From assembly GCA_947448735.1 (NCBI GenBank), contig CANFOS010000010.1, forward strand, positions 1-64,000: a stretch of 64,000 nt of DNA, in the 5' to 3' direction. This DNA is from Comamonadaceae bacterium. GTDB taxonomy: Bacteria > Pseudomonadota > Gammaproteobacteria > Burkholderiales > Burkholderiaceae_C. Every line of letters starts with the position of its first letter. Position 1 is the first letter of the stretch. A program made the position numbers and the translations under genes. A model generated the notes under the pieces. That model did no database searches, was not told the DNA's origin, and saw only the letters and a list, made by a program, of their open reading frames with translations. Shown in pieces: positions 8,437 through 63,685 of this stretch.

Positions 8437-8451
8437 AAAGGACTTTCGTTT

Positions 8452-8526
8452 GCTATTTATTCAGGAGCTGCTCGCCAAGGAATCCATTGGTCTGGATGTC
8501 TATTTGAACGCCAAAAAGGCCTGAAA
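8452..8526 (+). repeat. 65-bp interspersed repeat, copy A
   Basis: Begins GCTATTTATTCAGGAGCTGC and continues with TCGCC, then ATTGGTCTGGATG and a Tn-A-rich tail ending near CTGAAA. It aligns along its length with the reference copy at 37757. It lies directly upstream of the flavoprotein gene, where that gene's promoter would be expected. Confidence 0.7.
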
Positions 8527-9321: not shown

Positions 9322-12300
9322 TCAATCGACCATCACCACCTGGCCATCGCCCGTCAGGAAGGCCGCTTTGACAGTCTCGCCCGGGTAGATGGCCTGCACG
9401 GCGGCGATGTAGGTTTTCATTTTTGTCACCAGGTTCGGTTGCCGCTGTGGGCTGAAGGCTGACTTGTAGTCGAGCACCCACCATTGACCGTTTTTGCCCG
9501 TATCGCCTGCGTCCCGGCGCTGCACCAGCCGGTCCAGCCTGAAGGTGTCGCCCTGATGCGTCAGCTCGACCTCGTTGCCCTGCCACTGCACCACCGATGG
9601 ATCCCATGCCCAGTCAGCCGCACCGTGGCGGATGCGGTGCGCCATCGTCTGGGCCTGGCTGGCTTGCTCAGGGTTCAAACCAAATTCAAGCGCGACCCGG
9701 CGCACCGCTGGCTCTGACAAGTCGCTGAATTCCAGCAGGCGGTGCATGGCTTTGCCGATGCGGGCGGTCACGGAATCAGGCTCAACAACTTGCTCTGGCG
9801 CGGGGCTGTTGCTGATCACAAAAGCAGGCAATTCAGACAGGTTAAAGCCGCCCGACGCCATCTGTTCGTTGGCAACGGCTTGAGCCGGCAAGGTTTCAGC
9901 ATTTGCCAAACCATGCAGGCGCTGCCACCAGCTGCCAGGCGCTTGCCGGTGCGACTCGATGGATGACACGGCCAGCGTGTTTTTGGCGCGGGTGATGGCC
10001 ACATACAAGGCATTGAGTTCTTCGCGCCCTCTGGCCGCCTGCTCCTGGGCCAGTGCCTCTGTCGCGCAGGCGGGCGGCGCGCTTTCGCTGATCAAAAACA
10101 CAAACTTCTGCGGCGCCAGCGCCTGGCCCGGCCAGTCGACCAGCACGCTCATGCTGTCGGCGTTGCGCGGTGCGGTGTCGGTGTCCAGCAGCAACACGGC
10201 CTTGGCTTCCAGGCCCTTGGCACCATGAATGGTGAGCAGCCGAACCGCGTCCGGGTTAACTGCGGCAGGCGCCTTCAGGCCGCCGGCCTTCAGGGCGCGA
10301 ACAAAGGCATACGGTGTGGCATAGCGCCCACCATCGACCTGCAAGGCCGCTGCCAGCAGTGCCCGCAGATTGGACAGCACCGCGCCCCGGCTGGCAGCCG
10401 GTGCTGCAGCGGCAAAGCGGGCCAGCACGTCGCCACGGTCGTAAATCGCTTGCAAGGCATCATGCGGTGGCAAGGCGTCCAAAAGTGCTTTGTAGCGCGT
10501 CAAAGTGGCCCCCAGGCCAATCAATTCCTTTGCAGAGTGCTCCTTTTTTTGAAGCACCTCAAACCATGACAGTTTTGAATCCGCTTTGGCTAAAACGATT
10601 TGAACCAGCCCCTCGTCGGACAGATTGAACAGCGGCGAGCGCAGCGCGCGGGCCAGCGACAAGTCATGCTGGGGTGACACCAGCACATCCAGCAGCGCCA
10701 CGATGTCGAGCACTTCACAGCAGTCGATCAGCTCGGTTTTTTCGCCAATCTGCGCCGGGATATGCAGGGCGCGCAGCTCGTCCAGCAGCGGCAGCAGGCC
10801 GACACGTTTGCGGCACAGCACCATGATGTCTGACGGCTTGGATGTTTTGTCGCCGGGCTGCCCCAAGCGCAAATTCGCCTCTTCGGGTGGTAGCGCATCA
10901 CGCGAAGCAACAAGCGAGGGGGCCATTACGCTGTCCGTCTGGCTGGCCAGCTGGCTGGCGATCCAGCTGGCCGCTTGTCTGGCTTCCAGGGTGCGAAGCG
11001 TTTCTTCAGGCAGCTCACGCGGCGTGGTCAAGCTGTCGCGCCATTCCAAAGCCCCAGGTGCCTGGCTTTTTTCAGCCCGCTGGATGGCCGGCAAGCGCAG
11101 CACCCTGCCCTCGTCATCCGATGCACTGGTGTGGGTCCGAAAGCCCTCATACCCATCGCTGGCCGCTGCCTGGCCCATCACAGCATTGACAGCGCCAACC
11201 ACGGCCTGGCTGCTGCGCCGGGTATGGTCACAGGCCAGCAACTCACCTTTGAGCGCGTCACGCACAAAAGCCTGCGCCGCGATAAACACCTGCGGCTCGG
11301 CCCGGCGAAAGCGGTAAATGCTCTGCTTGGGGTCCCCCACGATGAAGACACTGGGTGCGGTGCCCCCCGCGCCGGCATAGCCACTGAGCCAACTGGACAG
11401 CGCCTGCCATTGCAACGGGTTGGTGTCCTGAAATTCGTCAATCATCAAATGCCGGATGCGCGCGTCCAGCCGCTCCTGCACCCAGCCCGACAGCACAGCG
11501 TCGCTCAGCATCACTTGCCCGGCGCGTTCCACATCGTTCATGTCGACCCAGCCGCGCTCACGCTTGAGCGCAGCAAACTCGGCCAGCAGCAGACGAGACA
11601 GGCGAGCCATGCGCTGCTGGTAGTTCCAGGCTTCGTGCTGGGCGATGGCCGCTTTGACGCGCAGCGCCAGGTCTTGCGCTTCTCGCACGGTGGCGATGCC
11701 GATGATTTTTTCACCAAACTTGCGCGGCGTGCCCTTCTCGGTCAGCAGCGCCAGCAGCGTGGCCGATACATCCCCCTTAGACAAGGCGTGTTCAAGTTCA
11801 ACGCCCTTGGCTGAATAGGTGGCAGCGCTGGCGCCGCCAAGAGCTTTGGCCGCAGCCAGCAGCAGCGCCATGGCTGCGCTGGTGCGCAAGCCTTCGTCGG
11901 GATACGCCAGTGCTGAAAATTCAGGATACTGGTCGGTAAAGTGCCGCACCGAACGGTCCACCACACCGGCTGCATCAGCCAGCAAAAACTCGGTGCGTTT
12001 GTCCAGCGCACCTTGCAGCGCTTTGTCGGTTTGAAAGCGGCCATGCGCCAGCACCACCGCTTCAAAGTCGGCTTTCAGCTCGGGCTGCTTCAAAAGAGCT
12101 GCATAAAACCGCCGCCAGACCAGTGCCTTGGCCGGGCCGTCGTCTTCCAGCAGCTCATAGCTAGCTGGCAGTCCCATCTGCTGCAAGACGGCCATGGGCG
12201 CGCTGCGCAGCAAGGCAGCAAACCAGCCGTGGAAGGTTTTGATCTGCACCGGACGGCCGTGGGCAAGCATCTGCTGATATAAATTTGATAGCTGCTTGCC

Positions 12301-12681
12301 CATGGATTGATTGGCCTGCAGGCTACTTTGACCCTCAACACCGCGGTTTTTAAGCTCTCTTTGAAGCGTTTCATCGTCTGCATTGGCAAACTCGGCCAGC
12401 CACTCGTACAAGCGTTCGCGCATTTCACCCGCCGCTTTTTTGGTGAAAGTGATCGCCAAAATTTCATGCGGCTGCACGGCGCCACCAGGCCCGCCTTCCA
12501 GCAGAGCGCGCACCATGCGGGACACCAGCATCCAGGTTTTGCCAGCACCAGCGCAGGCCTCCACTGCCACGCTGCGGGCCGGGTCGCAGGCAATCGCGTA
12601 GAAGGCTTCGGCAGACACGGCGTTCCCATTGTGTTCATAGGCTGCAAGAAGCGGCGTGACAAGCGCGGGGGGACTGTTCAT
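9322..12681 (-). CDS. UvrD/AddA-type helicase-nuclease (exonuclease V beta-like)
   Basis: 1119 residues from the ATG at 12681, which overlaps the upstream gene's stop as ATGA. It is a superfamily 1A helicase: Walker A AGAGKT at 44-49, the DEXX box LMIDEFQDTNPLQW, QSIYRFRRAEP (motif IV), LLTIHGAKGLEA (motif V) and ALYVAITRAKNTL (motif VI). The C-terminus has a RecB-type nuclease motif, LDRLVQRR followed by WWVLDYKSAF. With its partner it should process double-strand DNA ends for RecA loading, as AddA does. Two segments (about residues 115-136 and 709-727) are encoded by copies of the 65-bp repeat without breaking the frame. Confidence 0.92.
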   Translation of the reverse strand: MNSPPALVTPLLAAYEHNGNAVSAEAFYAIACDPARSVAVEACAGAGKTWMLVSRMVRALLEGGPGGAVQPHEILAITFTKKAAGEMRERLYEWLAEFANADDETLQRELKNRGVEGQSSLQANQSMGKQLSNLYQQMLAHGRPVQIKTFHGWFAALLRSAPMAVLQQMGLPASYELLEDDGPAKALVWRRFYAALLKQPELKADFEAVVLAHGRFQTDKALQGALDKRTEFLLADAAGVVDRSVRHFTDQYPEFSALAYPDEGLRTSAAMALLLAAAKALGGASAATYSAKGVELEHALSKGDVSATLLALLTEKGTPRKFGEKIIGIATVREAQDLALRVKAAIAQHEAWNYQQRMARLSRLLLAEFAALKRERGWVDMNDVERAGQVMLSDAVLSGWVQERLDARIRHLMIDEFQDTNPLQWQALSSWLSGYAGAGGTAPSVFIVGDPKQSIYRFRRAEPQVFIAAQAFVRDALKGELLACDHTRRSSQAVVGAVNAVMGQAAASDGYEGFRTHTSASDDEGRVLRLPAIQRAEKSQAPGALEWRDSLTTPRELPEETLRTLEARQAASWIASQLASQTDSVMAPSLVASRDALPPEEANLRLGQPGDKTSKPSDIMVLCRKRVGLLPLLDELRALHIPAQIGEKTELIDCCEVLDIVALLDVLVSPQHDLSLARALRSPLFNLSDEGLVQIVLAKADSKLSWFEVLQKKEHSAKELIGLGATLTRYKALLDALPPHDALQAIYDRGDVLARFAAAAPAASRGAVLSNLRALLAAALQVDGGRYATPYAFVRALKAGGLKAPAAVNPDAVRLLTIHGAKGLEAKAVLLLDTDTAPRNADSMSVLVDWPGQALAPQKFVFLISESAPPACATEALAQEQAARGREELNALYVAITRAKNTLAVSSIESHRQAPGSWWQRLHGLANAETLPAQAVANEQMASGGFNLSELPAFVISNSPAPEQVVEPDSVTARIGKAMHRLLEFSDLSEPAVRRVALEFGLNPEQASQAQTMAHRIRHGAADWAWDPSVVQWQGNEVELTHQGDTFRLDRLVQRRDAGDTGKNGQWWVLDYKSAFSPQRQPNLVTKMKTYIAAVQAIYPGETVKAAFLTGDGQVVMVD
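10501..10563 (-). repeat. 65-bp interspersed repeat, degenerate copy K inside the AddA-like gene
   Basis: Read on the minus strand this segment goes GTGCTTCAAAAAAAGGAGC and then, after a short A-rich stretch, ATTGGCCTGGGGGCCACTTTG. The second block matches the ATTGGCCTCAAGCCACTTTTG block of the reference copy at 37757. The 5' half is poorly conserved, so this is a weaker member. It is in frame and encodes about residues 709-727. Confidence 0.45.
12276..12338 (+). repeat. 65-bp interspersed repeat, copy B inside the AddA-like gene
   Basis: Sequence GATATAAATTTGATAGCTGC, then TTGCCCATGG and ATTGGCCTGCAGGCTACTTTG, aligns over its whole length with the copy at 37757. It lies on the opposite strand sense to the gene and keeps the reading frame open, encoding roughly residues 115-136 (QSSLQANQSMGKQLSNLY region), between helicase motifs. 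Confidence 0.75.
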
Positions 12682-15242
12682 GACCAAAAGTCTTTCCGGC
12701 ACAGGCCTCTGGCGGCACAAAATTCGCAAGCCTTGCCCTCCCCCAGCGCTGGCAAGGGCGCACCTTCTGCGATCCTTGCCATGTCGCTCAAGATGCCGCC
12801 AATCAGTTCGTCGCGCAAAGCCACAACCTCAGGCTGCGGGTAGGTTTTGGTCACTTCTTTTTCGCCGAGGTTCACGTAGGCAGCCGCCAGGGTGTCGTCT
12901 TCCAGCAGCGCTGCATAAAAAGCCAGTTGCGTGTCTTCGCCCGCGTCATCAATCCGCGCTCTGGTGGCGCTGGCAGACTCGGTTTTGTAATCCATCACCA
13001 AACGGCTGCCGTCGGGCAGGTGGTCGATGCGGTCGATTTTTCCGACCAGGTCGATCGTGCCCAGCGGCATGCGTTTCCACACCTCACCCTCGGCGTAGCG
13101 GGCGCCGCTGGCTTCGTGTGTGGTCAGCCAGTCGAGGTAACCGGCGCGCACCCGGGGCCAGATCGCGGCGAATGGCAAAAATTCCTCAGCGCTCAGGCCA
13201 AGCGTTTTTGTTGCTTCATCAGCCGCTATATTTATCATAGCTTCTCGCCCATTTATTTGTTGGTCTACAGCCGTATTTTGCGTCTCTAAAGCTGCATTTC
13301 TCAGGGCATTTTGAAAGAGATGAAGCAGCAAATGCAGCCAGTTGCCAAAGTCGCGCTTGCCCAGCTCGGTGTCCAGCTCGTCAGCTTCTTGCAGCTTGAG
13401 TTGGCGCAGGGCAAAAAACCGGTAGGGGCAGCGGCGCAGGTCTTCATAGGCGCTGGCCGACAGTGTGCTGATCGCCAAGGCCTGCCCGGTTGGCGCGGGC
13501 TGCGGCGTAGGCTGGGCGGGCAGCAGGCGCTGCGGGCGCGGGTCGGGGCTCAAAGCAGACTTGCGCGAGAGTCCTTTGGCCAGCAGGATTTCTTGCACAA
13601 AGCCACTGGGCATCAGGCTTTCACCGCCCTCGCTCAGCCGCCACAGCAGGTCCAGGTGCGGCGCGGTCTGGGCATGCTGCCAGGCCGCGCGTTGGGCCTG
13701 GGCCAGTTCGGCTCTGCCAGGCAAGCCCAGCAAGGCGCGCTGCGCCGGTGTCCAAGGGCCAGCGGGTTCGGGCGAGACGGCCAGCCGCACGTCGTCACAG
13801 CCCGGCAGCACCACCGCCTGCACGGGCCGACCGAGCAATTGGCTGAGCGGCAGCAACACCACCTGGGCCTGCGCGGGATGCGGCGGCGCAAAGCTGGCGG
13901 CCTCCAGGGTCTGGTTGGCCCATTGGCTGAAGTCTTGCAGGCTCATGCGCGGATTGATGGGCAGCGCGACGTCATCGTTCATGTGCAGGGCGGCCAAAAC
14001 GGCCATTCCTGCCGCATCACCGGCCAAGGGCATCCATTGGCCCGATGTTTGCAGTGCACTGCGCAGGTCTTGCAGCCAATCGGTCAAAGAACGGCTGCGC
14101 ACCATCGCTTCGCGGTACGACGCGGTCTGTTCAACAACATCGGCAAGCTCTGGCAGGGCAGTTGCCAGCGCGCGCCAGTCACGAACACCGAGCTTGCGCA
14201 GTGCTGTCTCAGCCAGGGTCACGGCCGATGCATCAAAGGCGGGCGCGTTTTTGAGCCAGTCGAGCACGGTATCGGTTGATGCGTCCCAGTGCATGGCACG
14301 CAGCAGGCCCATCAGGGTGGCCGCAGCCCGGGTGGTCGACAGCTTCCAGCCGGTTTCGTCACGCACGGCCACGCCTTTGCTGTCCAGCATGGCGCTCACG
14401 CGGCGGGTCAACAGGCGGTCTTGCGCAATCAGCGCTACCGGGCTGCGGCCAGAGGCCAGATGCGACAGCACGCAGGCGGCCGCTAGGTGCGCTTCGTCCT
14501 CCAGATCGCGAGCGGTGTGCAAGGCCAGCGCTCCTTGCCCGGTTGGCGCTTCAAGCTTGATGGACGCCGCACGATCAGCGTGATGACGCTTCAAGGCTTC
14601 GGTCAGAGGCTCGATCTGAAAGCCTTCGAGCACCACCAGAAGGTCAAGCGTCGCAACAAGTTGGCGATCAAACAGGACATCCGTTGCGTAACCGGAGGCT
14701 GCCGCCCAGGCCAGAGCAATGCGGGCAATCGCCAGCTCAAACGCCAGCGCCGGTGAGTCCATGCCTACACCCAGCTCCTGGCCTTTGGCAGCCCCCCAAG
14801 CCAGGCGCTGGCTCGGGGGTTGGGCGGCGGCCAGGCGGGCAATCCCCCAGGCCGCTTCGACCAGGCGGCCGACCAGCATCTGTTGCTGCGCGCCCAGCCC
14901 GGCACGATTCAGCAGGCTGGCAGCGGTGAGCGCGTCAATCGCAGCATCCATGCGAATGTCTTCTGGCAACACCTCAAAGCCGGGCGTGGCGCTGGCCCAG
15001 TTCATGGTGGTTTCAAAGCGCGGCACGAAGGCCGTTACAAGCCCCAGGCTGCGCGCATGAGCAGCCCAGGCAGTGCGCGCCTGCTGCATCAATTGGGCAT
15101 AGGGCAACAGCACCACGGTGCGTGAGGCATGCGCGCCTTTTTGCTTTAAAAACGACGCCACTTGCCCCATGACAGCTTGCCATTGAACATCACTTGGCGT
15201 GTCTATTGGCGTCTGGGCTTCGGGGGTCACGATCAGGGTCAT
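12678..15242 (-). CDS. AddB-like PD-(D/E)XK nuclease/helicase-like subunit with Fe-S cysteines
   Basis: 854 residues. The N-terminal half is a degenerate helicase-like region. The C-terminal third is a RecB-type nuclease with GTIDLVGKIDRID and GSRLVMDYKTES. Four cysteines match the AddB iron-sulphur pattern: one in RRCPYRFFAL near residue 607, and C839, C842 and C848 in CEFCAARGLC (C-x2-C-x5-C). The family cuts the 3'/5' strand and recognises Chi together with AddA. The gene overlaps the helicase gene by four bases, indicating stoichiometric production. Residues of about 650-672 come from a 65-bp repeat. It is shorter than Bacillus AddB. Confidence 0.88.
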   Translation of the reverse strand: MTLIVTPEAQTPIDTPSDVQWQAVMGQVASFLKQKGAHASRTVVLLPYAQLMQQARTAWAAHARSLGLVTAFVPRFETTMNWASATPGFEVLPEDIRMDAAIDALTAASLLNRAGLGAQQQMLVGRLVEAAWGIARLAAAQPPSQRLAWGAAKGQELGVGMDSPALAFELAIARIALAWAAASGYATDVLFDRQLVATLDLLVVLEGFQIEPLTEALKRHHADRAASIKLEAPTGQGALALHTARDLEDEAHLAAACVLSHLASGRSPVALIAQDRLLTRRVSAMLDSKGVAVRDETGWKLSTTRAAATLMGLLRAMHWDASTDTVLDWLKNAPAFDASAVTLAETALRKLGVRDWRALATALPELADVVEQTASYREAMVRSRSLTDWLQDLRSALQTSGQWMPLAGDAAGMAVLAALHMNDDVALPINPRMSLQDFSQWANQTLEAASFAPPHPAQAQVVLLPLSQLLGRPVQAVVLPGCDDVRLAVSPEPAGPWTPAQRALLGLPGRAELAQAQRAAWQHAQTAPHLDLLWRLSEGGESLMPSGFVQEILLAKGLSRKSALSPDPRPQRLLPAQPTPQPAPTGQALAISTLSASAYEDLRRCPYRFFALRQLKLQEADELDTELGKRDFGNWLHLLLHLFQNALRNAALETQNTAVDQQINGREAMINIAADEATKTLGLSAEEFLPFAAIWPRVRAGYLDWLTTHEASGARYAEGEVWKRMPLGTIDLVGKIDRIDHLPDGSRLVMDYKTESASATRARIDDAGEDTQLAFYAALLEDDTLAAAYVNLGEKEVTKTYPQPEVVALRDELIGGILSDMARIAEGAPLPALGEGKACEFCAARGLCRKDFWS
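13225..13293 (+). repeat. 65-bp interspersed repeat, copy C inside the AddB-like gene
   Basis: GCTATATTTATCATAGCTTC followed by TCGCCCATTTATTTGTTGG and ACAGCCGTATTTTGCGTCTC aligns with the reference copy at 37757 over about 69 bases, with few changes. It is antisense to the gene and in frame, encoding the TQNTAVDQQINGREAMINI stretch. The high similarity suggests a recent insertion. Confidence 0.82.
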
Positions 15243-15682: not shown

Positions 15683-15717
15683 GTCAGGAATGGGGACGCA
15701 AGGTCCCCATTCCTGAC
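15683..15717. terminator. Perfect 15-bp hairpin downstream of trxA
   Basis: Inverted repeat GTCAGGAATGGGGAC / GTCCCCATTCCTGAC with a five-base GCAAG loop. It begins 12 bases after the trxA stop. There is no U-tract directly after it on the plus strand (CCCCGTTCG follows), so a classical terminator is doubtful. It may instead protect the trxA mRNA 3' end, or be a REP-like palindrome. Confidence 0.6.
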
Positions 15718-15909
15718 CCCGTTCGAAGCCGCTTTTTTTCCTGTCATAATCAAAATTCGCAGGTCAACCATCCCTGACTTGCTCGAACCCCGGTTTGCGA
15801 AGCCACCACACTGACTGGCTTGCCTTCAAACCTCCCCCGATTTTCAATTGACACTCCAAAGAGTTGTCTTTTTACGCAATACCCTCTCGTCAAACTAGCA
15901 GGTTAATCC

Positions 15910-37745: not shown

Positions 37746-37756
37746 TCTTTCGAAAC

Positions 37757-37825
37757 GCTATATTTTTAATAGCTGCTCGCCCAATTTTTTATTGGCCTCA
37801 AGCCACTTTTGTATCTGAAAACAGC
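37757..37825 (+). repeat. 65-bp interspersed repeat, copy D (reference copy)
   Basis: GCTATATTTTTAATAGCTGC, TCGCCCAATTTTTTATTGG and CCTCAAGCCACTTTTG, ending TATCTGAAAACAGC. The 5' part is a short inverted repeat (GCTAT-N-ATAGC). It stands in intergenic DNA just after the COQ7 fusion gene, and I use it as the reference for the family. Confidence 0.82.
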
Positions 37826-37940
37826 TACTTTTTTCTGTCAGGCTGTCGCCAGAAGGCACAGGTTTTGGCTTGTGGGCGCCAGGCAAAAGCGTGCCACCTG
37901 AGCGCAATGCAGGGCCCGACTAAATTGACATGACCCGTGC

Positions 37941-38129
37941 TCATTGTTTGAAATCAAGCAACGCGTCTGACAGGAATCCATCGTTGACGAACCGGTCTTG
38001 ACGTTCACAGGGGTCCTCGCGCGTGTAAAGCAGTCCACCTGAAAAGCCGGCGCGCGATTCTCCGGGTCGATTGACGCTGGACCTCAATGCCGGTCCGATT
38101 GCACCAGCTTGTGCAGACTTCGATACCAA
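37941..38129 (-). other. Short open frame, possible gene remnant
   Basis: A 62-codon minus-strand frame ends at 37941. Its C-terminal part (GGLLYTREDPCERQDRFVND, then GFLSDALLDFKQ) looks protein-like, and its 5' part overlaps the end of the hydrolase gene. It could be the tail of a decayed catabolic gene. I cannot assign it to a family. Between copy D and this frame (37826-37940) I see no other feature. Confidence 0.25.
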
Positions 38130-38962
38130 GAGTGCTCTGGGTCACTGAGCCTGGTGTGGGTCTGGAAGTGGTCGCTACCTGTTTCCACGCGGCCAACCGC
38201 AGGTCCGCTTTGCAGTTGAAGCAATGCCAACAAGCGCTGGTTAGAGCGCACCACGCGCTCGCTGTCACGCTCGCCATAACTCAGCAGCATGGGAAGGCGG
38301 TTGCCCGCGGCCCAGCAGAGGGGACTCATGACAGCGTCTTCGACGCCTTTTCGCAAAACCATCGAATAGACGCGCTCTTCAAGCGTTCCCGGCGCGGGTG
38401 CGGGGTGGTGCAGGTCCATGATGCCGCTGATGGGCAGACAGCCGCGAACCGCGTGTTCCGGCAGCCCGGCCTTTCGCCGGTCGCCCTCGCGCAACGCAAC
38501 CAGAGCCGACAGATGTCCCCCAGCCGAATGGCCAGCCAGATAAAGCCGCTCTGGTGCGCCACCCAGGCCCGCAATATCTGCGGTCAGCGCCTTTAACAGC
38601 GCAAGACCATCTTCAAAGGCTGCGGGCAACGGGTTCTCAGGCGCCAGCCGGTAAGACGGCGCAACCAGCACCATGCCCAGACGTGTGATGTATGGTGCCA
38701 TGAACGTTGTGTAGTCGCGATAACCATTGGTCCAGCCGCCACCGTGCCAGAACACCAGCACCGGGGCATTGCGGAAATGGCGTGGGGCGAACACGTTGTA
38801 ACGCTGCAGGCGATGCTCCCCGTATGGCAGATCGCGTGTGGCTACAACGTCGGATGGCAACGGCGCCTGAGCCCATGCCATGACAGTCTGGGCATAGTCT
38901 TGCGCCGCCTGAAAAGGCAAGGGCATCTGGTCGTCGGGGTCAAAGATGGACTTGTCGAGCAT
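38084..38962 (-). CDS. Alpha/beta hydrolase (esterase/kynurenine-formamidase-like)
   Basis: 292 residues. The oxyanion-hole motif HGGGW near residue 73 and the nucleophile elbow GHSAGGH (Ser) near residue 145 mark the hormone-sensitive-lipase/BD-FAE type; the acid is probably in YGERDSERV and the histidine in GSDHFQTH. No signal peptide, so it is cytoplasmic. It is last in a minus-strand cluster with an epimerase, an SDR and a Bug receptor, suggesting it opens an ester or amide intermediate in a catabolic path. Confidence 0.85.
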   Translation of the reverse strand: MLDKSIFDPDDQMPLPFQAAQDYAQTVMAWAQAPLPSDVVATRDLPYGEHRLQRYNVFAPRHFRNAPVLVFWHGGGWTNGYRDYTTFMAPYITRLGMVLVAPSYRLAPENPLPAAFEDGLALLKALTADIAGLGGAPERLYLAGHSAGGHLSALVALREGDRRKAGLPEHAVRGCLPISGIMDLHHPAPAPGTLEERVYSMVLRKGVEDAVMSPLCWAAGNRLPMLLSYGERDSERVVRSNQRLLALLQLQSGPAVGRVETGSDHFQTHTRLSDPEHSWYRSLHKLVQSDRH

Positions 38963-39010
38963 GCGCAGCTGATGAATGTGAATACATGGGCTTCGGGCGA
39001 TCAGGCTGAC

Positions 39011-39988
39011 TCAGCCCAGCAAAGGGGCGAAATAACGCACCGAATCCGTCAGCGAATAACTCGGCGTCCAGGAGAGTTCGCGTGCAGCTGCGGAAATGTC
39101 GGATGCAGCCTCCCGAACATACGCAAACCCGGCAAAGCCGCCGGCCGGTTGCACAGCGAAGGCCACTTCTAGACCCGGGTACAGCTGACTGACCGCGGTC
39201 ACGAACTCGTCGAAACTGGTCAGCGTGCCAAGGCCAATATGGTAGACGCCTTGCGCCGGTGACCGTGCGTCCAACGCCGCCACATTGGCCAGTGCGCAGT
39301 CGCGGGCATCGATGAACTCTTCTCCCCCCTTCCACATGGCGTAGGGGTCGTCCAGAACGGCGGGTTCTTTGCGTCGAGCTGGCCCAAGCAGCGATGAAAG
39401 CACCTTACCTGGCACGGAAGTACCCGGTCCGCTCCAGGCACCTATCACCGCCGCATAACGCAGCACGGCCACACTTGTGCCGTAAAGGTCGCGGTACAGC
39501 AGCGCCAGATGCTCGCCCATCACTTTGGTAGCTGCATAGATCGAGCCAGGCCGATGGGTCAAGGCTCGCAATTCAAAGTCTTCAGGAAAAGCGTTGCCGT
39601 GGAAATCACCGAAAGTCGAGTAGCCCACGGTGGTCGAACTGGCAATCACCACACGCGCCAGCTTCAGTTGCCGGGCCGCCTCCAGCACATGGGCCGTCCC
39701 CATGACATTGACTTGTATGCCTGCCAGAGGATCCTGTCGAATCGCGGTGGACAACAGCGCGGCCGTGTGCACGATCTGGTTGACGCCTTGATCACGAGCC
39801 AGAGTCATCAAGCCCTGAAAGTCCGTCACATCAGCCTGCACGATGGACACCAACGGGTGGTCAATGATGCAAGCAATTGCCGCACGCGCAGGACGCCTGT
39901 CCATCAGGATGGAGCGCATGCCCCTTTCAGCCAGCAGCCGCGCCGTGTGGCAACCAATGATGCCAGCCCCCGTGATCAGTGTTGTCAT
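39011..39988 (-). CDS. NAD-dependent epimerase/dehydratase family protein
   Basis: 325 residues of the extended SDR type. NAD motif TLITGAGIIGCHTAR at the start; the active-site pair is YAATK (Tyr-x3-Lys) with the serine in VVIASSTTVGYS. Such proteins act on nucleotide sugars or related hydroxy-ketone substrates. The gene lies between an SDR and a hydrolase, so a catabolic dehydrogenase is more likely here than envelope sugar synthesis, but this is inference. Confidence 0.87.
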   Translation of the reverse strand: MTTLITGAGIIGCHTARLLAERGMRSILMDRRPARAAIACIIDHPLVSIVQADVTDFQGLMTLARDQGVNQIVHTAALLSTAIRQDPLAGIQVNVMGTAHVLEAARQLKLARVVIASSTTVGYSTFGDFHGNAFPEDFELRALTHRPGSIYAATKVMGEHLALLYRDLYGTSVAVLRYAAVIGAWSGPGTSVPGKVLSSLLGPARRKEPAVLDDPYAMWKGGEEFIDARDCALANVAALDARSPAQGVYHIGLGTLTSFDEFVTAVSQLYPGLEVAFAVQPAGGFAGFAYVREAASDISAAARELSWTPSYSLTDSVRYFAPLLG

Positions 39989-40037
39989 GTTGTTTGGCCC
40001 CTGACGTCCAACGCGAACTGCAGGCGCGGACAGTTAT

Positions 40038-40784
40038 TCAAATGCTCAGGCCGCCCAGCGACTTTCCGCCATCCACGAAGAGAGTCTGGCCGGTGATGAA
40101 ATGGGTCGAGGCAGAAGCCAGGAAGGCGATGGCGTTGGCAATGATGTCTGGCGTGGCTGCCTTGCCCCCGGGCTCCAGTTCCTCCCAGGCAGCAAACATC
40201 TCCGCCGGAGCAGAGCGTGTCATGGGTGTGTCGGTAAAACCCGGCGCAACCGAGTTGACGGCGATCTGTCGACTGCGCAGCTCCATCGCCATCGCGCGTG
40301 TCAGCCCTATCACTGCGGCCTTCGATGCCACATAGTGGGCGAACCGGGTGCCGCCAAGCGCGCCACGGGAAGAAATCGTGACAATGCGCCCGCCTGGCTT
40401 CATACGGCGCGCCGCCTCTTGCGCGGGAATGAAGGTGCCAATCACGTTGACATCCAGCATGGTGCGAAAGGCGTCTTCGGTCAGGTCCAGCAACTGTGCA
40501 TCGTTATAGATGCCGGCGGCGCAGACCATGGCATCCACGCGTGGCTGCGCATCGAGCGCAGCCACAACCGAGGCCCGGTCACAGACGTCCACGACAGCGG
40601 CGGTCACGTCCAGCGCCTTAGCCGTCAACGCTGCAACCGCCTCTTCGAGCCGGCTGGCGTTTCGGTCCATGGCCACCACGCGAAAGCCGTCTGAGGCCAA
40701 ACGGCTGACCGTTGCAAGGCCAATGCCCTGGGCAGCGCCGGTGACGAATGCAACCGGCTTGTCAAAAGAGGTGGGTGTCTGCAT
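40038..40784 (-). CDS. Classical short-chain dehydrogenase/reductase
   Basis: 248 residues. Cofactor motif TGAAQGIG at the N-terminus, NNAG-type position replaced by CAAGIY, catalytic Ser in TISSRGALGG and YVASK. The aspartate at MDRNAS suggests NAD rather than NADP. The C-terminal FVDGGKSLGG is typical of the FabG-like group. It is 31 bases downstream of the Bug receptor gene on the same strand. Confidence 0.92.
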   Translation of the reverse strand: MQTPTSFDKPVAFVTGAAQGIGLATVSRLASDGFRVVAMDRNASRLEEAVAALTAKALDVTAAVVDVCDRASVVAALDAQPRVDAMVCAAGIYNDAQLLDLTEDAFRTMLDVNVIGTFIPAQEAARRMKPGGRIVTISSRGALGGTRFAHYVASKAAVIGLTRAMAMELRSRQIAVNSVAPGFTDTPMTRSAPAEMFAAWEELEPGGKAATPDIIANAIAFLASASTHFITGQTLFVDGGKSLGGLSI

Positions 40785-40814
40785 GAGGATGGGTGCGTTG
40801 CGAGGGATAACGCT

Positions 40815-41801
40815 TCAGTCGGCCTGAATGCCGAACTCCTTGACCACTTTGCCGTAACGCGCGTAATCGCTCGCGACCAGTTTGCCCAGTTTGTCTGGAT
40901 CCCCTCCAACTGGGGACGCCGAAAGCGCGTTCATCTTTGCAGCAACATCGGGCATCTTGAGAATCTCATTGCAATGGGTGTTGAGCAGTTTCACCGCATC
41001 GGCCGGCATTCCCTTGGGACCGAGCAGGGCTTGCCACGCGCCCAGGTCGGAATCCTTGAAGCCTTGCTCAATCAGCGTGGGTACCTTGGGCATGAAGGGT
41101 GAACGCTGCGGGTCGGCAACGGCCAGCACAGCCAGCTTGCCCGTCGCGATGTGTTGCGAAGCTGGACCGAGCGTTCCGTACATCATCGGTACTTGGCCGC
41201 CGATCATGTCCGCAACCGCGGGGACGCTTCCGCGGTAGGGGATCTGTTCGATCTTCACGCCGGCTGACTTGTTGAACAGTTCCGCAAGGATGTGCATGGG
41301 AGATCCGTTGCCGGGACTGGCATACGACTTGATCTTTCCGGATTTCACCGCTGCCACCAGTTCTTTCATGTTGGTCACACCAGAAGCGGTGGTGACAATC
41401 ACGAACAATGACTGGCTGGCCAACTGGATGATGGGCGTGAAGTCATTGACTGCGTCGTAGCGAGAGCCGGTTCCTTCTTTCAGAACGTGCGGCACGATGG
41501 ACAAGGTGTTGGGTGCCAGCAGCAGCGAGTAGCCATCCGGTGCCGCTTTGGCGACATAAGCAGTCCCTATGGTTCCGCCCGCCCCTGTACGGTTGTCTAT
41601 GAGCACCGGAACCCCGAGGCGTTCTGACAGCTTTTGGCCAACGATTCGCGCCAGCACGTCGGTGTCTCCGCCGGCAGGATAGGCCACCGTGATGGTGATC
41701 GGCTTGTTGGGAAAAGCGCCCTGTGCGAAGGCAGGCACTGAGAGGGACGTTGCTGCGCCTGAGCCGGCAAGGGCGAGGAGGTGGCGGCGGGAGAGTGGCA
41801 T
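40815..41801 (-). CDS. Bug/TctC family tripartite tricarboxylate-type solute receptor
   Basis: 328 residues. A signal sequence (SRRHLLALAGSGAATSLSVPAFAQ) with an RR pair, then the family motifs PITITVAYPAGGDTDVLARIV and IDNRTGAGGTIGTAYVAKAAPDGYSLL. Bug proteins bind organic acids or amides in the periplasm. No TctA/TctB membrane genes are present here. It is the first gene of the cluster and diverges from a GntR regulator, so its expression is likely controlled by that regulator. Confidence 0.93.
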   Translation of the reverse strand: MPLSRRHLLALAGSGAATSLSVPAFAQGAFPNKPITITVAYPAGGDTDVLARIVGQKLSERLGVPVLIDNRTGAGGTIGTAYVAKAAPDGYSLLLAPNTLSIVPHVLKEGTGSRYDAVNDFTPIIQLASQSLFVIVTTASGVTNMKELVAAVKSGKIKSYASPGNGSPMHILAELFNKSAGVKIEQIPYRGSVPAVADMIGGQVPMMYGTLGPASQHIATGKLAVLAVADPQRSPFMPKVPTLIEQGFKDSDLGAWQALLGPKGMPADAVKLLNTHCNEILKMPDVAAKMNALSASPVGGDPDKLGKLVASDYARYGKVVKEFGIQAD

Positions 41802-41877
41802 GAAGTGCTCCTGGGTGGTCTCAAACGTGGGTGGGGATGGAGAAGACAGTTCAATGTATTCAAATTAATTTCTTACG

Positions 41878-41906
41878 TCAACATAAATTTTGTCCTTTGA
41901 TACAAT
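41878..41906 (+). promoter_or_regulatory. Candidate promoter of the GntR regulator gene
   Basis: -35 TCAACA and -10 TACAAT separated by 17 bases, 15 bases before the ATG at 41921. The AT-rich stretch between the divergent starts is the only place for an operator of the regulator. Confidence 0.45.
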
Positions 41907-41920
41907 TTATTGATCCCATC

Positions 41921-42700
41921 ATGAATCATCTCGCCATGACAAAGTCCGCCGGACCTACTGCCGCCAATGAGCTGTTGGTGGAAGCTCAGGATCCCACCGG
42001 TACGCCTGTCGACAAGACACTGGCTGAACGGGCGTTTCGGCTGTTGCGCGATGACATCCTCAACGGGAGCTTGGCGCCCGAGACACGATTGCGCGTGAAC
42101 CTGCTGCAAAAGCGTTATGGGATCGGCTTGAGCCCGCTGCGCGAGGCCTTGCTGCTTCTGCTCAGCGAAGGTCTGTTGGTGGCCGAGGGCCAGCGCGGCT
42201 TTATGGTGGCGCCGGTTTCGTTCGCCGAGTTGCAGGATCTGACGCGCGCGCGAACCGCCCTTGACATTGCCGCACTGACGCAAGCCATGGCGTTTGGCGG
42301 TGCAGACTGGGAGGCACGGGTCGTTTCGGCCAATCACCTTTTGTCGCGTACACCCTTACCCCTGGATGCCAGCGACGTACAGGCTGCCAAGCTTTGGGAG
42401 CAGAGACACCGGGCTTTCCATGTGGCATTGATTTCCGGGTGTGGCTCAAACTGGCTGATGCGTCTGCATGGCCAGTTGGCCGATCATTCGGAGCGTTACC
42501 GCACGATTCGAATCCTGCATCACCGAGAAAAAGCGTCTCAGGTGCGCGATGTGGTGGCCGAACATGCCGCGATCACCGACGCGGTGCTGCGCCGTGACCT
42601 GGTTTTGGCCACGGCGTTGGTGACGGGGCACATCGCGGCCACGGCCGTTGCGATGGGAAACTTTTTCGACACAAAGCCGCGCGAGCGACACACGACCTGA
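41921..42700 (+). CDS. GntR family (FadR/FCD subgroup) transcriptional regulator
   Basis: 259 residues from the ATG at 41921 (or 41936). The winged helix holds AFRLLRDDILNGSLAPETRL and YGIGLSPLREALLLLLSEG, followed by an all-helical FCD effector domain with LTRARTALDIAAL and the metal-binding histidines in HRAFHVALI and HAAITDAVL. Regulators of this group usually repress the adjacent catabolic operon and respond to its substrate. It diverges from the Bug-SDR-epimerase-hydrolase cluster. Confidence 0.9.
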   Translation: MNHLAMTKSAGPTAANELLVEAQDPTGTPVDKTLAERAFRLLRDDILNGSLAPETRLRVNLLQKRYGIGLSPLREALLLLLSEGLLVAEGQRGFMVAPVSFAELQDLTRARTALDIAALTQAMAFGGADWEARVVSANHLLSRTPLPLDASDVQAAKLWEQRHRAFHVALISGCGSNWLMRLHGQLADHSERYRTIRILHHREKASQVRDVVAEHAAITDAVLRRDLVLATALVTGHIAATAVAMGNFFDTKPRERHTT

Positions 42701-43011
42701 TCGAACGCTTGCCCACGTTTGTTTTGCACTGGCATGACAAGAAGATGGCCAGCAACATGGGTCTGTATTCAAGCGTCCAGAGCACTCACGCAGTGCGCCG
42801 CACCAAGCCTTGCCTGATCTGTCGACCTGCAAAACGGCTCGACGCCATCCAGCTGATTGAAGGCTGCGCGAAGTTGCAGGCCGCGGCGCGGCATCTTGGG
42901 ATGGGTGATTCGCCGACCCTGGACATCGAACACTTCCCACAGAGCTGGCTCGCTGGCGCACCATACATTGATCGTGGGACGCAATCTTGCTCTCTCACCA
43001 AGGACATTCAG
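42701..43011. other. Intergenic stretch without a recognisable gene
   Basis: Between the regulator and the dehydrogenase. It is open in the dehydrogenase frame, but the encoded residues do not resemble the family and the good start is at 43012. No repeat, RNA or terminator was seen. Confidence 0.5.
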
Positions 43012-44109
43012 ATGATTAAAGCGCGCGGTTATGCGACAAAACACTCTTTCAGCGGACTGAAGCCTTTCGACTTCGAACGGGAAGAAGCCGGAGCGAAGGA
43101 AGTTGAAATCGAAGTGCTTTTTTGCGGGGTATGCCACTCTGACATTCACCAGGCAAGAAATGAATGGCACAACACGGTCTATCCCAGCGTACCCGGCCAT
43201 GAAGTGGTCGGTCGTGTGACAAAAGTCGGGCAAGCGGTGTCGCTTCATCACGTGGGCGACCTGGTTGGCGTCGGCTGCATGATTGACAGTTGTCGGCAGT
43301 GCCAACCCTGCAAAAGCGGTGAAGAAAACTACTGTGAGGGGCCCAACAGCTGGCTGGCAACCTACAACGGTCCCATGGTGCCTGCAAGTATGGCACCCGA
43401 AGGGGTCAACAGCTACGGCCGCAGCAATACCTTCGGCGGTTATTCCAATGTGCTGGTTGTGAAAGAAGACTTTGTACTCAAGATTCCCAAGGCCCTGAAG
43501 CCCGAGGTGGCTGCGCCGATTCTTTGCGCCGGCGTCACGACTTATTCTGCAATGAAGCAATTCAAAGTGACAGCCGGCCAAAAAGTAGGCATTGTCGGTT
43601 TCGGCGGATTGGGCAACATGGCAGCCAAGATCGCCAAGGCGCTTGGTGCAGAAGTCATCGTCTTTACAAGCACCCCAGAAAAAGTCGAGGAAGCTAAAAA
43701 ACTGGGGTTTCATGCGGTCGTTGAAAACGACAAAGAGGCGTTAAAAAAACTCAAGTCCAGCTTCGACTTCATCCTCTCAACCGTCCCGCAAAAGCATGAC
43801 ATCAACCCCTTTATTCTTTTGCTAAAACGTGACTGCACGATTGTGGTGTGCGGCGCCTTAGAGCCTATGGCATCTGTGAACAACATGGAACTGGCCGCCC
43901 ACCGCAAGCGTGTGACGGGCTCACTCATTGGAAGCATTGCCGATACGCAGGAAATTTTGGACTTTTGTGCAAAGCATGCGATCGGCCCGGATGTGGAGCT
44001 CATCAACATTGAGGACATCAACAGTGCCTACGACAAAATCGAAAGCGGCGACGTACGGTTTCGGTATGTCATCGATATGTCCTCGATCAACAAGGGTTCG
44101 TCACACTGA
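43012..44109 (+). CDS. Zinc-dependent NAD(P) alcohol dehydrogenase (YahK/cinnamyl alcohol type)
   Basis: 365 residues from the ATG at 43012, with AAGGA eight bases upstream. Catalytic zinc ligands in FCGVCHSDIHQ and GHEVVGRV; the structural zinc site CRQCQPCKSGEENYC keeps all four cysteines. The cofactor motif is VGIVGFGGLGNMAAK. The family reduces a range of aldehydes, usually with NADPH. The codon use is visibly more A/T-rich than its neighbours, which may indicate separate acquisition. Confidence 0.92.
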   Translation: MIKARGYATKHSFSGLKPFDFEREEAGAKEVEIEVLFCGVCHSDIHQARNEWHNTVYPSVPGHEVVGRVTKVGQAVSLHHVGDLVGVGCMIDSCRQCQPCKSGEENYCEGPNSWLATYNGPMVPASMAPEGVNSYGRSNTFGGYSNVLVVKEDFVLKIPKALKPEVAAPILCAGVTTYSAMKQFKVTAGQKVGIVGFGGLGNMAAKIAKALGAEVIVFTSTPEKVEEAKKLGFHAVVENDKEALKKLKSSFDFILSTVPQKHDINPFILLLKRDCTIVVCGALEPMASVNNMELAAHRKRVTGSLIGSIADTQEILDFCAKHAIGPDVELINIEDINSAYDKIESGDVRFRYVIDMSSINKGSSH

Positions 44110-45081: not shown

Positions 45082-45180
45082 AAGAAGGCTGGCCGTTTGC
45101 AGGAAACCGCCAAGAGCTTTAAATCTGTTTTATACCCCAGCCATACCAAGGCCAAAGCAAGATAAACAATTGGAATCTGA

Positions 45181-45210
45181 CCCAATTTTTCTCAATTTTT
45201 CTCAATTTTT
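45181..45210. repeat. Three tandem 10-bp units
   Basis: CCCAATTTTT followed by two exact CTCAATTTTT units. It is too short and regular for CRISPR and is probably slippage-derived. Confidence 0.8.
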
Positions 45211-45270
45211 CCTGTCGTTTCGACTTGCAGACCAATGAATACAAAGGCAAGCAGATCCTGAATTGATAGC
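45211..45270 (-). repeat. 65-bp interspersed repeat, copy E
   Basis: On the minus strand GCTATCAATTCAGGATCTGC then TTGCC, ATTCATTGGTCTGCAAG. It aligns with the reference copy at 37757 and is closest to copy A at 8452 in its 5' part. Confidence 0.7.
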
Positions 45271-45429
45271 GACTGGGCATTAACTGGAATCTGACCGCCA
45301 TTTTTTGCCCCTCGTTTCTAGGGCGGCAATTACTTTCAAAATCGTAGCAAACGCAGGATTGACTGAGGGCCACAGGGTGTCATACGAACTTTCGCTTGAT
45401 AAGTTTGCGCACGCACGGTCCGCTTTAAT

Positions 45430-47750: not shown

Positions 47751-47820
47751 ACTCTTTTTACCTATGTTTTAGGTCCATAGCCCAACAAATTCAAGGGCAA
47801 GCAGCTATAAATTTAATAGT
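47751..47820 (-). repeat. 65-bp interspersed repeat, copy F
   Basis: On the minus strand ACTATTAAATTTATAGCTGC, TTGCCCTTGAATTTGTTGGG, then CTATGGACCTAAAAC. It fills most of the gap between arsR and arsC, so it is transcribed if the two genes share an mRNA. Confidence 0.72.
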
Positions 47821-47847
47821 AATTTTATTTTAACCAAGAGGCATCTC

Positions 47848-48352: not shown

Positions 48353-49030
48353 ATGAGCCAGCCGTCTTTAAAAAACCAACTGTTCGCAGAATTTGTCGGC
48401 ACTGCCGCCCTGCTCTGCGCGGTGATTGGCTCGGGCATCATGGCCGTGAATTTGAGCGGTGGCAACAACGGCGTGGCGCTGCTGGCCAACACGCTGGCCA
48501 CTGTGTTTGCGCTGTATGTGTTGATCGAGCTGCTGGGGCCCGTCAGTGGCGCGCACTTTAACCCGCTGGTGACGCTGATGGTCCTTTTCAGGACATCAAA
48601 AGAGGCTGCAGGCCAACAAAATCCTGGGCAAGCAGCTTCTCTTTTTATAGCATTTCAGTTGTTGGGGGCGATCGCTGGCGCATGGCTGGCCAACGCCATG
48701 TTTGACCTGAGCGTGTTGCAGTTCAGCGCCAAGGCACGGGGCGGCTGGGGCCAGTGGCTCGGTGAGATGGTGGCCACTGCCGGCTTGATTCTGGTGGTGC
48801 TGCGCGCCCCTGCTGGCAAGGCCGCTGGCCTGGTGGCCTGCTACATCGGCGCGGCCTACTGGTTCACGTCCAGCACCTCCTTTGCCAACCCGGCAGCGGT
48901 GATGGGACGCATGTTCAGCGACAGCTTTGCGGGCATTGCGCCGGGCAGTGCTTTGGGCTTTGTAGCGGCGCAGTGTGTGGGCGCGCTGGTGGGCGTAGCG
49001 CTGCACCGCGCGCTGGGAAAACCCGTTTAA
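48353..49030 (+). CDS. Aquaglyceroporin-like MIP channel (AqpS-like)
   Basis: 225 residues with six membrane helices and two half-helix loops. The first loop motif is altered to NPL (residues 70-72, SGAHFNPLVTLM) and the second is NPA (179-181, SFANPAAVMG). In arsenic clusters such channels (as in Sinorhizobium AqpS) let arsenite leave the cell down its gradient after reduction by ArsC. Residues 78-100, between helices 2 and 3, are encoded by a copy of the 65-bp repeat in frame. The stop overlaps the convergent gene by four bases. Confidence 0.88.
   Translation: MSQPSLKNQLFAEFVGTAALLCAVIGSGIMAVNLSGGNNGVALLANTLATVFALYVLIELLGPVSGAHFNPLVTLMVLFRTSKEAAGQQNPGQAASLFIAFQLLGAIAGAWLANAMFDLSVLQFSAKARGGWGQWLGEMVATAGLILVVLRAPAGKAAGLVACYIGAAYWFTSSTSFANPAAVMGRMFSDSFAGIAPGSALGFVAAQCVGALVGVALHRALGKPV
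48585..48651 (-). repeat. 65-bp interspersed repeat, copy G inside the aquaglyceroporin gene
   Basis: On the minus strand GCTATAAAAAGAGAAGCTGC, TTGCCCAGGATTTTGTTGG, CCTGCAGCCTCTTTTGATG, ending CCTGAAAAG. It matches copy D across about 67 bases. It is in frame and encodes the loop after the first NP-x motif (TSKEAAGQQNPGQAASLF). Confidence 0.83.
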
Positions 49031-54031: not shown

Positions 54032-54078
54032 GCTATTAAAAATAGCTGCTTGTGCTTTTATACATCGTTTAAAAGCCG
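54032..54078 (+). repeat. 65-bp interspersed repeat, copy H (shortened)
   Basis: GCTATTAAAAATAGCTGCTT then GTGCTTTTATACATCG and TTTAAAAGCC. The 5' palindromic half is well conserved while the 3' half is worn. Confidence 0.6.
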
Positions 54079-54103
54079 ATTAAAAAACCAATAACTGGCC
54101 CTG

Positions 54104-61061: not shown

Positions 61062-61098
61062 GCGCTGATTATCGACGCATGATGTATCTGACTCGTCT

Positions 61099-61153
61099 GC
61101 TATTTAAAAAATAGCTACTTGCCTATGTAAACGTGGGCCTGCAGCTGTATTGA
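61099..61153 (+). repeat. 65-bp interspersed repeat, copy I
   Basis: GCTATTTAAAAAATAGCTAC, TTGCCTATG and GGGCCTGCAGCTGTATTG match the family. It lies between rlmB and the ABC ATPase gene. Confidence 0.72.
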
Positions 61154-61158
61154 TGCCC

Positions 61159-61863
61159 TCAATCGGACTTGATCTGCCCCGCCTCAATCACAATGCGCCG
61201 CTCGCAGCGCGCGGCAATAGCCTTGTCGTGCGTGACCAGCACCAGCGTCGTGCCTAACTCGCGGTTCAGCTCAAACATCAGTTGCATCACCGTTTCGCCG
61301 GTTGCAAAGTCCAGGCTGCCGGTGGGTTCATCGGCCAGCAACACGGCCGGTTGCACCACAAAGGCCCGGGCCAGCGCCACTCTTTGCTGCTCGCCGCCGG
61401 ACAGCACCTTGGGGTAATGCGCAAGCCGCTCGCCCAGGCCGACGCGCTTGAGCATTTCTGTGGCCAGCGTGCGGGCGCTTTGGGTGCCAGACAATTCCAG
61501 CGGCAGCATGACGTTTTCCAGCGCCGTCAAGTTGCCCATCAACTGAAAGCTTTGGAACACAAAACCCACTTTTTGTGCGCGCAGTGCAGCCCGGTCATCC
61601 TCGCTGATGGCAAAAATATCCTGCCCCGCCAGACGCACCGTACCGCTGGTGGGCGTATCCAGGCCGGCAATGATGGACAACAGTGTGCTCTTGCCTGACC
61701 CAGATGCGCCGACAATGGCTGCGGTCTCGCGCGGGGCGAGCGCAAAATCAATATCACGCAGAATGGTCAAGGTGCCTGTCGAGTCGCTGACTGACTTGAA
61801 AATATGCTGAACGGCAACAATTGAATCGCTGCAAACCAAGCTAGAAACTTCAGAAACAGACAT
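61159..61863 (-). CDS. YbbA-like ABC transporter ATP-binding protein
   Basis: 234 residues from the ATG at 61863, with AGGG upstream. Walker A GASGSGKSTLLS, the signature LSGGEQQRVALARA, Walker B VLLADEPTGSLD, and the H-loop LVLVTHDKAIA place it with the LolD/MacB/YbbA group. It diverges from a TesA-like esterase as in E. coli ybbA-tesA, but no YbbP-like permease follows; the next minus-strand gene is rlmB. Confidence 0.9.
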   Translation of the reverse strand: MSVSEVSSLVCSDSIVAVQHIFKSVSDSTGTLTILRDIDFALAPRETAAIVGASGSGKSTLLSIIAGLDTPTSGTVRLAGQDIFAISEDDRAALRAQKVGFVFQSFQLMGNLTALENVMLPLELSGTQSARTLATEMLKRVGLGERLAHYPKVLSGGEQQRVALARAFVVQPAVLLADEPTGSLDFATGETVMQLMFELNRELGTTLVLVTHDKAIAARCERRIVIEAGQIKSD

Positions 61864-62581: not shown

Positions 62582-63636
62582 GTCTGATCAAAATTTCAGC
62601 CGAAGAGGCATTGAACCGGCTAGGCGAATTCTCGGATGTGATTGACGCACGCAGCGAAGGCGAATATGCCGAAGACCACTTGCCGGGTGCGATCAACTGG
62701 CCCAGCCTGAACAACGAAGAGCGCAAGCTGGTGGGAACCGAGTACAAGCAGATCAGCGCCTTTGATGCGAAAAAACGCGGCGCTGCGCTGGTCGCCAAAA
62801 ACATTGCACGCCACCTGGAGCGTGACGTGATTGACAAACCACGCAACTGGCAGCCTCTGGTGTACTGCTGGCGTGGCGGCAAGCGCAGTGGCTCGCTGGC
62901 CCTGATACTTGACCAGATTGGCTTTAACGTCACCCTGGTCGATGGTGGCTACAAAGCCTTCAGGGCAGCACTGGTTGAAGCTTTGCCGCAACTGGCCAGC
63001 CGGTTTGATTACCGCGTGATTTGCGGCACCACCGGCTCGGGCAAGACACGCTTGCTGCAAGCCTTGGCGGCACTTGGCGCCCAAGTGCTTGATCTGGAGG
63101 CGCTGGCGAATCACCGTTCGTCGGTGCTGGGCGTGATTCCTGGCACACCGCAGCCCACCCAAAAAGCCTACGACAGCCTGATTTGGGCGGCTTTAAGAAG
63201 TTTTGATGCATCGCGGCCCGTCTACATTGAAAGCGAGAGCAAAAAAGTCGGCAATGTCGCGATACCCGAAGGGCTGATCACCGCCATGCGTGCTGCGCCT
63301 TGCCTGCAGCTGGATTTGAGTGAGGACCAGCGGGTGGAACTGCTGCTCGAAGACTATGATTTTTTCGTCAAGGACGTCGCGTTTTTCTGCGACCGTCTGG
63401 CTGCCCTGACGCAAGCACGCGGCAAGGATGTGGTGACTGGCTGGCAAACGCGGGCGAGAAGCGGCGACATCGCGTCAGTCGTGCGCGAGTTACTGGTGGA
63501 TCACTATGACCCGGTGTATTTGCAGTCGATGAAGCGCAATTTTGCGCAATACCCAACCAGAACCAGCATTGCACCGACCAACCGAAGCGTTGAAGCCATG
63601 CAGCGGTTGGCCAAAGAAATGCTATCGAAAAAGTAG
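62578..63636 (+). CDS. mnmH: tRNA 2-selenouridine synthase
   Basis: 352 residues, ATGA overlap with tesA. The rhodanese domain holds catalytic C97 in VYCWRGGKRSGS; the P-loop GTTGSGKTRLL is at 150-160. It replaces sulphur by selenium, through a geranylated intermediate, at the wobble uridine of several tRNAs. No selenophosphate synthase gene is in the window. The last residues and the TAG stop lie inside copy J of the 65-bp repeat. Confidence 0.95.
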   Translation: MSLIKISAEEALNRLGEFSDVIDARSEGEYAEDHLPGAINWPSLNNEERKLVGTEYKQISAFDAKKRGAALVAKNIARHLERDVIDKPRNWQPLVYCWRGGKRSGSLALILDQIGFNVTLVDGGYKAFRAALVEALPQLASRFDYRVICGTTGSGKTRLLQALAALGAQVLDLEALANHRSSVLGVIPGTPQPTQKAYDSLIWAALRSFDASRPVYIESESKKVGNVAIPEGLITAMRAAPCLQLDLSEDQRVELLLEDYDFFVKDVAFFCDRLAALTQARGKDVVTGWQTRARSGDIASVVRELLVDHYDPVYLQSMKRNFAQYPTRTSIAPTNRSVEAMQRLAKEMLSKK

Positions 63637-63674
63637 CATCTAGCCTACGCAATGATTAGCCTACAGGCTTTTTT
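63621..63674 (+). repeat. 65-bp interspersed repeat, copy J over the mnmH stop
   Basis: GCTATCGAAAAAGTAGCATC, TAGCCTACGCAATGATTAGC, CTACAGGCTTTTTTGA. It is a diverged member that starts 16 bases before the end of mnmH and supplies its final codons and stop. Confidence 0.6.
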
Positions 63675-63685
63675 GAGAATTTAAA

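Follow-up and report, generated by a model that had tools for sequence, protein, structure and literature searches.

How does a repeat that is scattered through a genome come to lie inside both genes of an AddAB-like operon, and does it bring new protein segments with it when it does so? The question is raised by the window analysed here (the whole 64-kb stretch of DNA), for which an earlier note had described repeat copies within both subunits, each said to insert about 20 residues. The two genes and three copies are as follows, with scores from a profile HMM of the repeat.

9322..12681, minus strand: addA-like helicase gene, an open frame; best NCBIfam model addA_alphas, 344 bits, below its cut-off
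12678..15242, minus strand: addB-like nuclease gene, an open frame; best NCBIfam model addB_alphas, 77.5 bits, below its cut-off
12274..12342, minus strand: copy B, inside addA in the gene sense; 52.1 bits, E 1.8e-15
13221..13292, minus strand: copy C, inside addB in the gene sense; 39.5 bits, E 1.6e-11
10488..10530, plus strand: copy K, inside addA and opposite to the gene; 14.6 bits, E 1.1e-3

The Pfam domains UvrD-helicase and PDDEXK_1 were recognised in the AddA-like and AddB-like products, respectively, and the AddA N-termini of the nearest genus members, G085 and G068, are 97% and 95% identical to that of the window. Copy B carries the exact core GGGCAAGCAGCTATCAAA at 12284-12301 and encodes ..QANQSMGKQLSNLY, while copy C encodes ..DQQINGREAMINIA and is 8 residues longer than in most relatives. 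Copy K is partial, with only the left half of the HMM matched, and is weak here and conserved in relatives. The frames of both genes stay open across B, C and K, which bears out the description of repeat copies in both subunits.

The HMM was trained on 38 copies from this genome with the addAB copies left out and, owing to this origin, may miss copies in distant species; an earlier seed profile that held B, C and K was left out of the evidence. The best score among 20 shuffled windows sets a background ceiling of 8.6 bits, and B, C and the weaker K all exceed it; the copies are real and more than chance. The window holds 11 matches at E ≤0.01, and those outside addAB are listed here.

8449..8521, minus strand: copy at a frame end or intergenic; E 1.2e-11
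37753..37825, minus strand: copy in no long frame; E 1.4e-13
45203..45275, plus strand: copy in no long frame, not in the sister contig; E 9.3e-9
47754..47823, plus strand: copy overlapping the start of an open frame; E 1.2e-12
48584..48652, plus strand: copy within an open frame of uncertain status; E 1.1e-10
54032..54098, minus strand: weak copy; E 2.2e-3
61096..61167, minus strand: copy in no long frame; E 3.7e-10
63619..63682, minus strand: copy at a frame end; E 1.8e-6

Only B, C, K and possibly the copy at 48584-48652 fall wholly within a long open frame. As B, C and K make up most of the matches within long frames, their clustering in addAB is suggestive, the count being post hoc; the three members in one operon are confirmed. 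At 15685-15725, downstream of a thioredoxin-like frame, the window also holds a palindrome, GGAATGGGGAC..GTCCCCATTCC, perhaps of another repeat family.

Genome-wide, the core GGGCAAGCAGCTATNAAA gave 39 matches with up to 2 mismatches (16 forward and 23 reverse), against none for its reversed pattern at the same tolerance. The motif is therefore over-represented in both orientations, a property by which DNA uptake sequences are recognised. Around GCAAGCAGCTATTAAATTTATAGC, the profile of 41 copies from this genome extends from a T-run near -41 as far as about +23 and resembles GCCTnTAGcCCAAtaAATACATGGGC on its left side; the motif spans some 55-66 bp, is strongest in a 25-bp core, and contains two inverted repeats. 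No Rfam family matched the window at gathering score. Across the genus, core matches with up to 1 mismatch number 0 to 201 per genome and are present in 67 of 87 genomes, where the reversed control gives 0-1 on each strand. G005, which we take to be Polaromonas naphthalenivorans CJ2, has 26 HMM matches within 200 kb. In a family-wide draw of 399 genomes, at least one core match was seen in 144 genomes and 64 of 141 genera, although lone matches can be chance because controls there reach 2. Several family members, G090 and G095 included, are rich in core matches and give no AddA match at E 1e-20, indicating that the motif does not need AddAB.

The in-gene copies at B, C and K follow the repeat load, which was defined as the core count at up to 1 mismatch and may therefore overlook diverged copies in genomes called repeat-poor. 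The profile survey covered genus loci L061-L130 and compared repeat-rich genomes (at least 10 core matches) with repeat-poor ones (at most 4), those with 5-9 falling outside both classes. Copy B was found in 44/46 repeat-rich and 0/20 repeat-poor loci, copy C in 23/43 and 0/17, and copy K in 37/46 and 1/19; the denominators 43, 17 and 19 arise because loci without a found anchor were left out per site. The distribution of K also led us to reject the idea that this weak copy is a chance match reflecting similar residues in relatives. A codon-based score, with classes split at 10 core matches, separated the genomes in the same direction: at B, 39/46 against 3/24 in the genus and 25/38 against 7/27 in other genera, and at C, 28/43 against 3/23 in the genus, with no association at C in other genera (5/33 against 5/26). 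In those other genera, 13 of the 38 genomes with at least 10 core matches score low at B, and five with at least 30 score very low. GC content was rejected as a confounder, as the association stays when GC3 is a covariate in a regression that ignores phylogeny.

Related species share history, and the association at B was also assessed on a tree built without the site columns. Among at most 6 independent supported pairs, an average of 2.8 changed the same way, 0.2 the other way and 3.0 showed no difference (median p 0.25, where a sign test with 6 supported pairs cannot reach 0.05). Polaromonas sp. JS666 (G062) and CF318 (G007) are nested among repeat-rich species and have 2-3 core matches. Neither has a profile match at B, C or K; both have ordinary codons at the first ProA site described below, as does JS666 at the TruB site.

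Does the motif, then, lengthen the proteins? Segment lengths were compared as residues between conserved anchors, together with homologue alignments; the duplicate genomes L132, L133, L135 and L136 were dropped before this comparison, the codon score, the profile survey of relatives and the codon-rarity scan. The B segment is 49 aa long in the window, in 30/46 repeat-rich and in 18/20 repeat-poor genus members, the remainder being longer. In other genera 45 aa is commonest (25/38 repeat-rich, 15/25 repeat-poor), so the genus segment exceeds that of most of them by about 4 residues. Among the loci with 45 aa are L161, L166 and L169, which have the core, and L139, L144 and L190, which do not, showing that the core itself costs no length. 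The K segment is 52 aa in the window and 43/46 repeat-rich members; among repeat-poor members it is 52 aa in 5/19 and 59-61 aa in 14/19. The C segment is 41 aa in 38/43 repeat-rich and 15/16 repeat-poor members, and reaches 49 aa (+8) in three repeat-rich loci, comprising the window's clade, with the window itself, and one further relative.

By a codon-usage score, 11 of 42 copies in this genome, B among them, fall within a likely gene. From their translations, we take the likely and some of the borderline in-gene copies to belong to ProA (two copies), TruB, TilS, Pgi and ThiL. The ProA gene of this genome (L230) thus bears the motif twice. At ProA copy 1 and at TruB the alignment is gap-free at the motif in 40/40 loci each, and Lys-Asn is found inside the motif of ProA copy 1 in most of the 40. 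At TruB, the genome studied here reads GCA GCT ATT AAA ATA ATA GTG (AAIKIIV), where repeat-poor L300 reads GCC GCC ATT CGC ATC ATC GTG (AAIRIIV). Length does change at other sites, as seen from the loop gains in ProA copy 2, TilS and Pgi. The loop at ProA copy 2 exceeds that of motif-free relatives by 2-4 residues. The TilS segment has 29 residues without the motif and 33 or 41 with it (+4 or +12), or 46 in one case. TilS lacks the motif in the repeat-rich genomes G002, G005, G021, G060 and G072, and carries a motif-like stretch in G065, although that genome has no core match. In the short loop of Pgi, the ten loci fetched for their low load have 23-29 residues, and the other 30 have 33 (26 loci) or 34-37 (4 loci), a gain of +4 to +10; G049, with 4 core matches, is among these 30. 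Compared with repeat-poor genus members, then, there is no gain at B, K, ProA copy 1 or TruB and a short one at C, ProA copy 2, TilS and Pgi. The +22 residues of a whole 66-bp insertion were seen at none of the sites compared (B, K, C, ProA, TruB, TilS, Pgi).

These lengths do not agree with the proposed insertion of some 20 residues per copy. The earlier note had also held that the same residues in homologues from distant genera would refute its reading, and other genera do have the same residues at B (REQLQNLY, REPLSNLY), many without length change. The motif is usually missing from the addAB genes of relatives without the repeat, but comparable residues are present there at B, C and K. The suggestion that the element is a source of new protein segments holds for modest gains (C by 8 residues, B by about 4 against most other genera, and the short gains in ProA copy 2, TilS and Pgi); to judge from the sequences compared, the motif is mostly spelled in pre-existing positions and new residues are only modest. 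In short, the earlier note is partly supported, its observation being largely real and its interpretation mostly not.

The choice of codons differs with the motif. Repeat-rich members mostly spell the QLSNLY of copy B as CAG CTA TCA AAT TTA followed by TAC or TAT, with CTA in 36 and TTA in 37 of the 42 loci with a high core score. Repeat-poor relatives have QLQGLY, or QLSNLY by other codons, such as CAG CTG TCC AAT CTC TAC in JS666. When codon rarity was scanned over aa 41-290 of addA, the QLSNLY windows ranked first to third, both in the genus (233 windows) and in other genera (223 windows). CTA is used at B in 36/70 genus loci and 36/65 from other genera, and TTA in 39/70 and 16/65, where the two together account for only about 1-3% of Leu codons elsewhere. 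In the part of addB that was scanned, codon rarity peaks at site C, and does so in the genus alone.

Synonymous differences within repeat-rich genomes are low at B (0.24, against 0.39 in the rest of the gene), ProA copy 1 (0.15 against 0.36) and TruB (0.27 against 0.42), ranking 19/246, 7/415 and 14/307 windows, respectively. Between repeat-rich and repeat-poor genomes they rise to 0.68, 0.65 and 0.74, and between-class differences are the higher at all four sites, C included. At C there is no synonymous conservation within repeat-rich genomes (0.44 against 0.38; rank 162/246), and the TruB site is equally conserved synonymously within repeat-poor ones. The motif is broken where the protein needs it to be, with a Tyr codon in AddA against the consensus TAG, and with the Asn of ProA kept.

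Rare codons held across genera, conserved residues that persist within the motif, and the absence of in-gene and dispersed copies from the same genomes together point to maintenance at the DNA level. With moderate confidence, we favour the reading that some DNA-level process maintains the motif, which is accommodated mostly in place, in protein-permissive codons, with short loop expansions. Such a process would keep a long motif at many places in the genome; codons already present would come to spell it where the protein tolerates this, and at some sites a loop would expand slightly, the whole element not being inserted. We infer that the in-gene and the dispersed copies are maintained by a single process; the copies may spread through point mutation plus recombination. 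This process would most likely be a sequence-specific recognition of DNA, by a binding protein or through a bias in uptake or recombination. A more specific form of this proposal, which we consider rather doubtful, is that the motif serves the Comamonadaceae for self-recognition, as an uptake-type or recombination-type sequence that is longer than the known ones and partly palindromic. Molecular drive would then write it into conserved genes, among them those for recombination, and loss of the putative recogniser would let it erode throughout the genome, as in JS666 and CF318.

The main rival, to which we assign a real but minor chance, is patch conversion by a selfish repeat, mobile now or formerly. 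Here short homeologous recombination or template switching would let the dispersed repeat overwrite similar gene stretches, and the in-gene copies would be kept alike until the dispersed ones die out. This accounts for full-length motif patches, for the link to repeat load and for small length changes. It also fits a search with an 87-base addA piece from another genus, which found further matches in 12/12 genomes of 11 genera at E values up to 1, the best match outside addA having E ~1e-6. Patch conversion sits less easily with the conserved residues that stand in register, without gaps, inside the motif of ProA copy 1, or with the failure to find a mobiliser. A RAYT-type mobiliser, and with it a REP element, was rejected, as Y1_Tnp occurs in 84/87 genomes irrespective of load and a core copy was near 0/20 Y1_Tnp loci. 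The Y1_Tnp protein, of about 240 residues (L310-L329), is found in nearly every genus genome.

Less probable again is in-frame insertion of a mobile palindromic element that was later trimmed by deletions. The gains at C, TilS and Pgi are in its favour, as is the copy at 45203, which lies in a stretch absent from the sister genome; the missing +22 and the lack of any gain at B, K, ProA copy 1 and TruB over repeat-poor genus members count against it. The sister contig (~94% identity) has counterparts for 7/8 window copies within the covered span, and the eighth, at 45203, lies in a stretch that was replaced rather than interrupted by a clean 66-bp gap; a clean insertion between the sister genomes was therefore rejected. 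Window positions 45155-45412, which bear this copy, are intergenic and largely different in the sister, G085. Elsewhere, about 5.9 kb of the window (37825-43737) stand opposite about 0.3 kb of that contig, with a motif copy at the edge in both and another inside the sister's short stretch.

An origin of the motif family from addA is possible, although the copies in ProA, TruB and AddB are read in a frame other than that of addA. Local constraint alone, such as an mRNA structure or a rare-codon pause with the likeness to the repeat coincidental, is very improbable despite the two inverted repeats and the rare in-gene codons: in a search for signs of hairpin selection, no convincing covariation was seen for 12 candidate pairs in 41 copies (lowest permutation P 0.048), the same sequence turns up in several genes and frames, and B matches the profile at E 1.8e-15.

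Whatever maintains it, the motif offers a testable case of a DNA sequence competing with protein coding, as residues are largely kept and codons vary with motif load, and a comparison of species that differ in it is a route to a putative recogniser. There is also a caution here: before a repeat that stays in frame is taken as evidence for a new protein segment, relatives lacking that repeat need to be compared.

Among known systems, the Rickettsia protein-coding palindromic elements (RPE) are insertions of extra residues. They share with the present motif the occurrence of a repeat inside genes whose frames stay open; unlike RPE, the motif adds little or no length at most sites. The enterobacterial RU are likewise small repeats read in frame within genes, but are described as mobile sequences fused to genes (PMC2759123). 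BRE elements resemble the motif in being dispersed in Comamonadaceae with some copies coding, and the two are set apart by description: BRE are ~90 bp long with 69% G+C in Bordetella and are reported to be most numerous (29) in JS666 (PMC3110155), where we find only 2 core matches. JS666 thus has the most BRE and almost none of the motif, and one repeat family may have replaced another.

For P. naphthalenivorans CJ2, the accessible portion of one paper gives an unexplained motif pair, ATAGCT(N)22CAAAAG, with 125 copies, 18 of them in genes, and treats neither the in-gene copies further nor relatives (PMC5217627). Within 200 kb of G005, each of the 7 instances of this pair falls on a profile match, and one ThiL copy of the present genome fits it. 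The pair and our motif are probably the same family, noted before without explanation. Among open-licence full texts, we found no report of the in-place behaviour.

The DNA uptake sequences of Neisseriaceae (DUS) and Pasteurellaceae (USS) are, like the motif, dispersed in both orientations and both genic and intergenic; they differ in being ~9-12 bp long and non-palindromic with thousands of copies per genome, compared with a partly palindromic motif of 55-66 bp in far fewer copies. They are said to arise in place by point mutation and not by insertion (PMC1939737), and uptake sequences may degenerate when specificity is lost (PMC3630211). Within the Comamonadaceae, competition data for Verminephrobacter suggested sequence-specific uptake (PMC4212676). 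On our best reading of these comparisons, the motif would resemble DNA-uptake sequences more than in-frame palindromic insertions.
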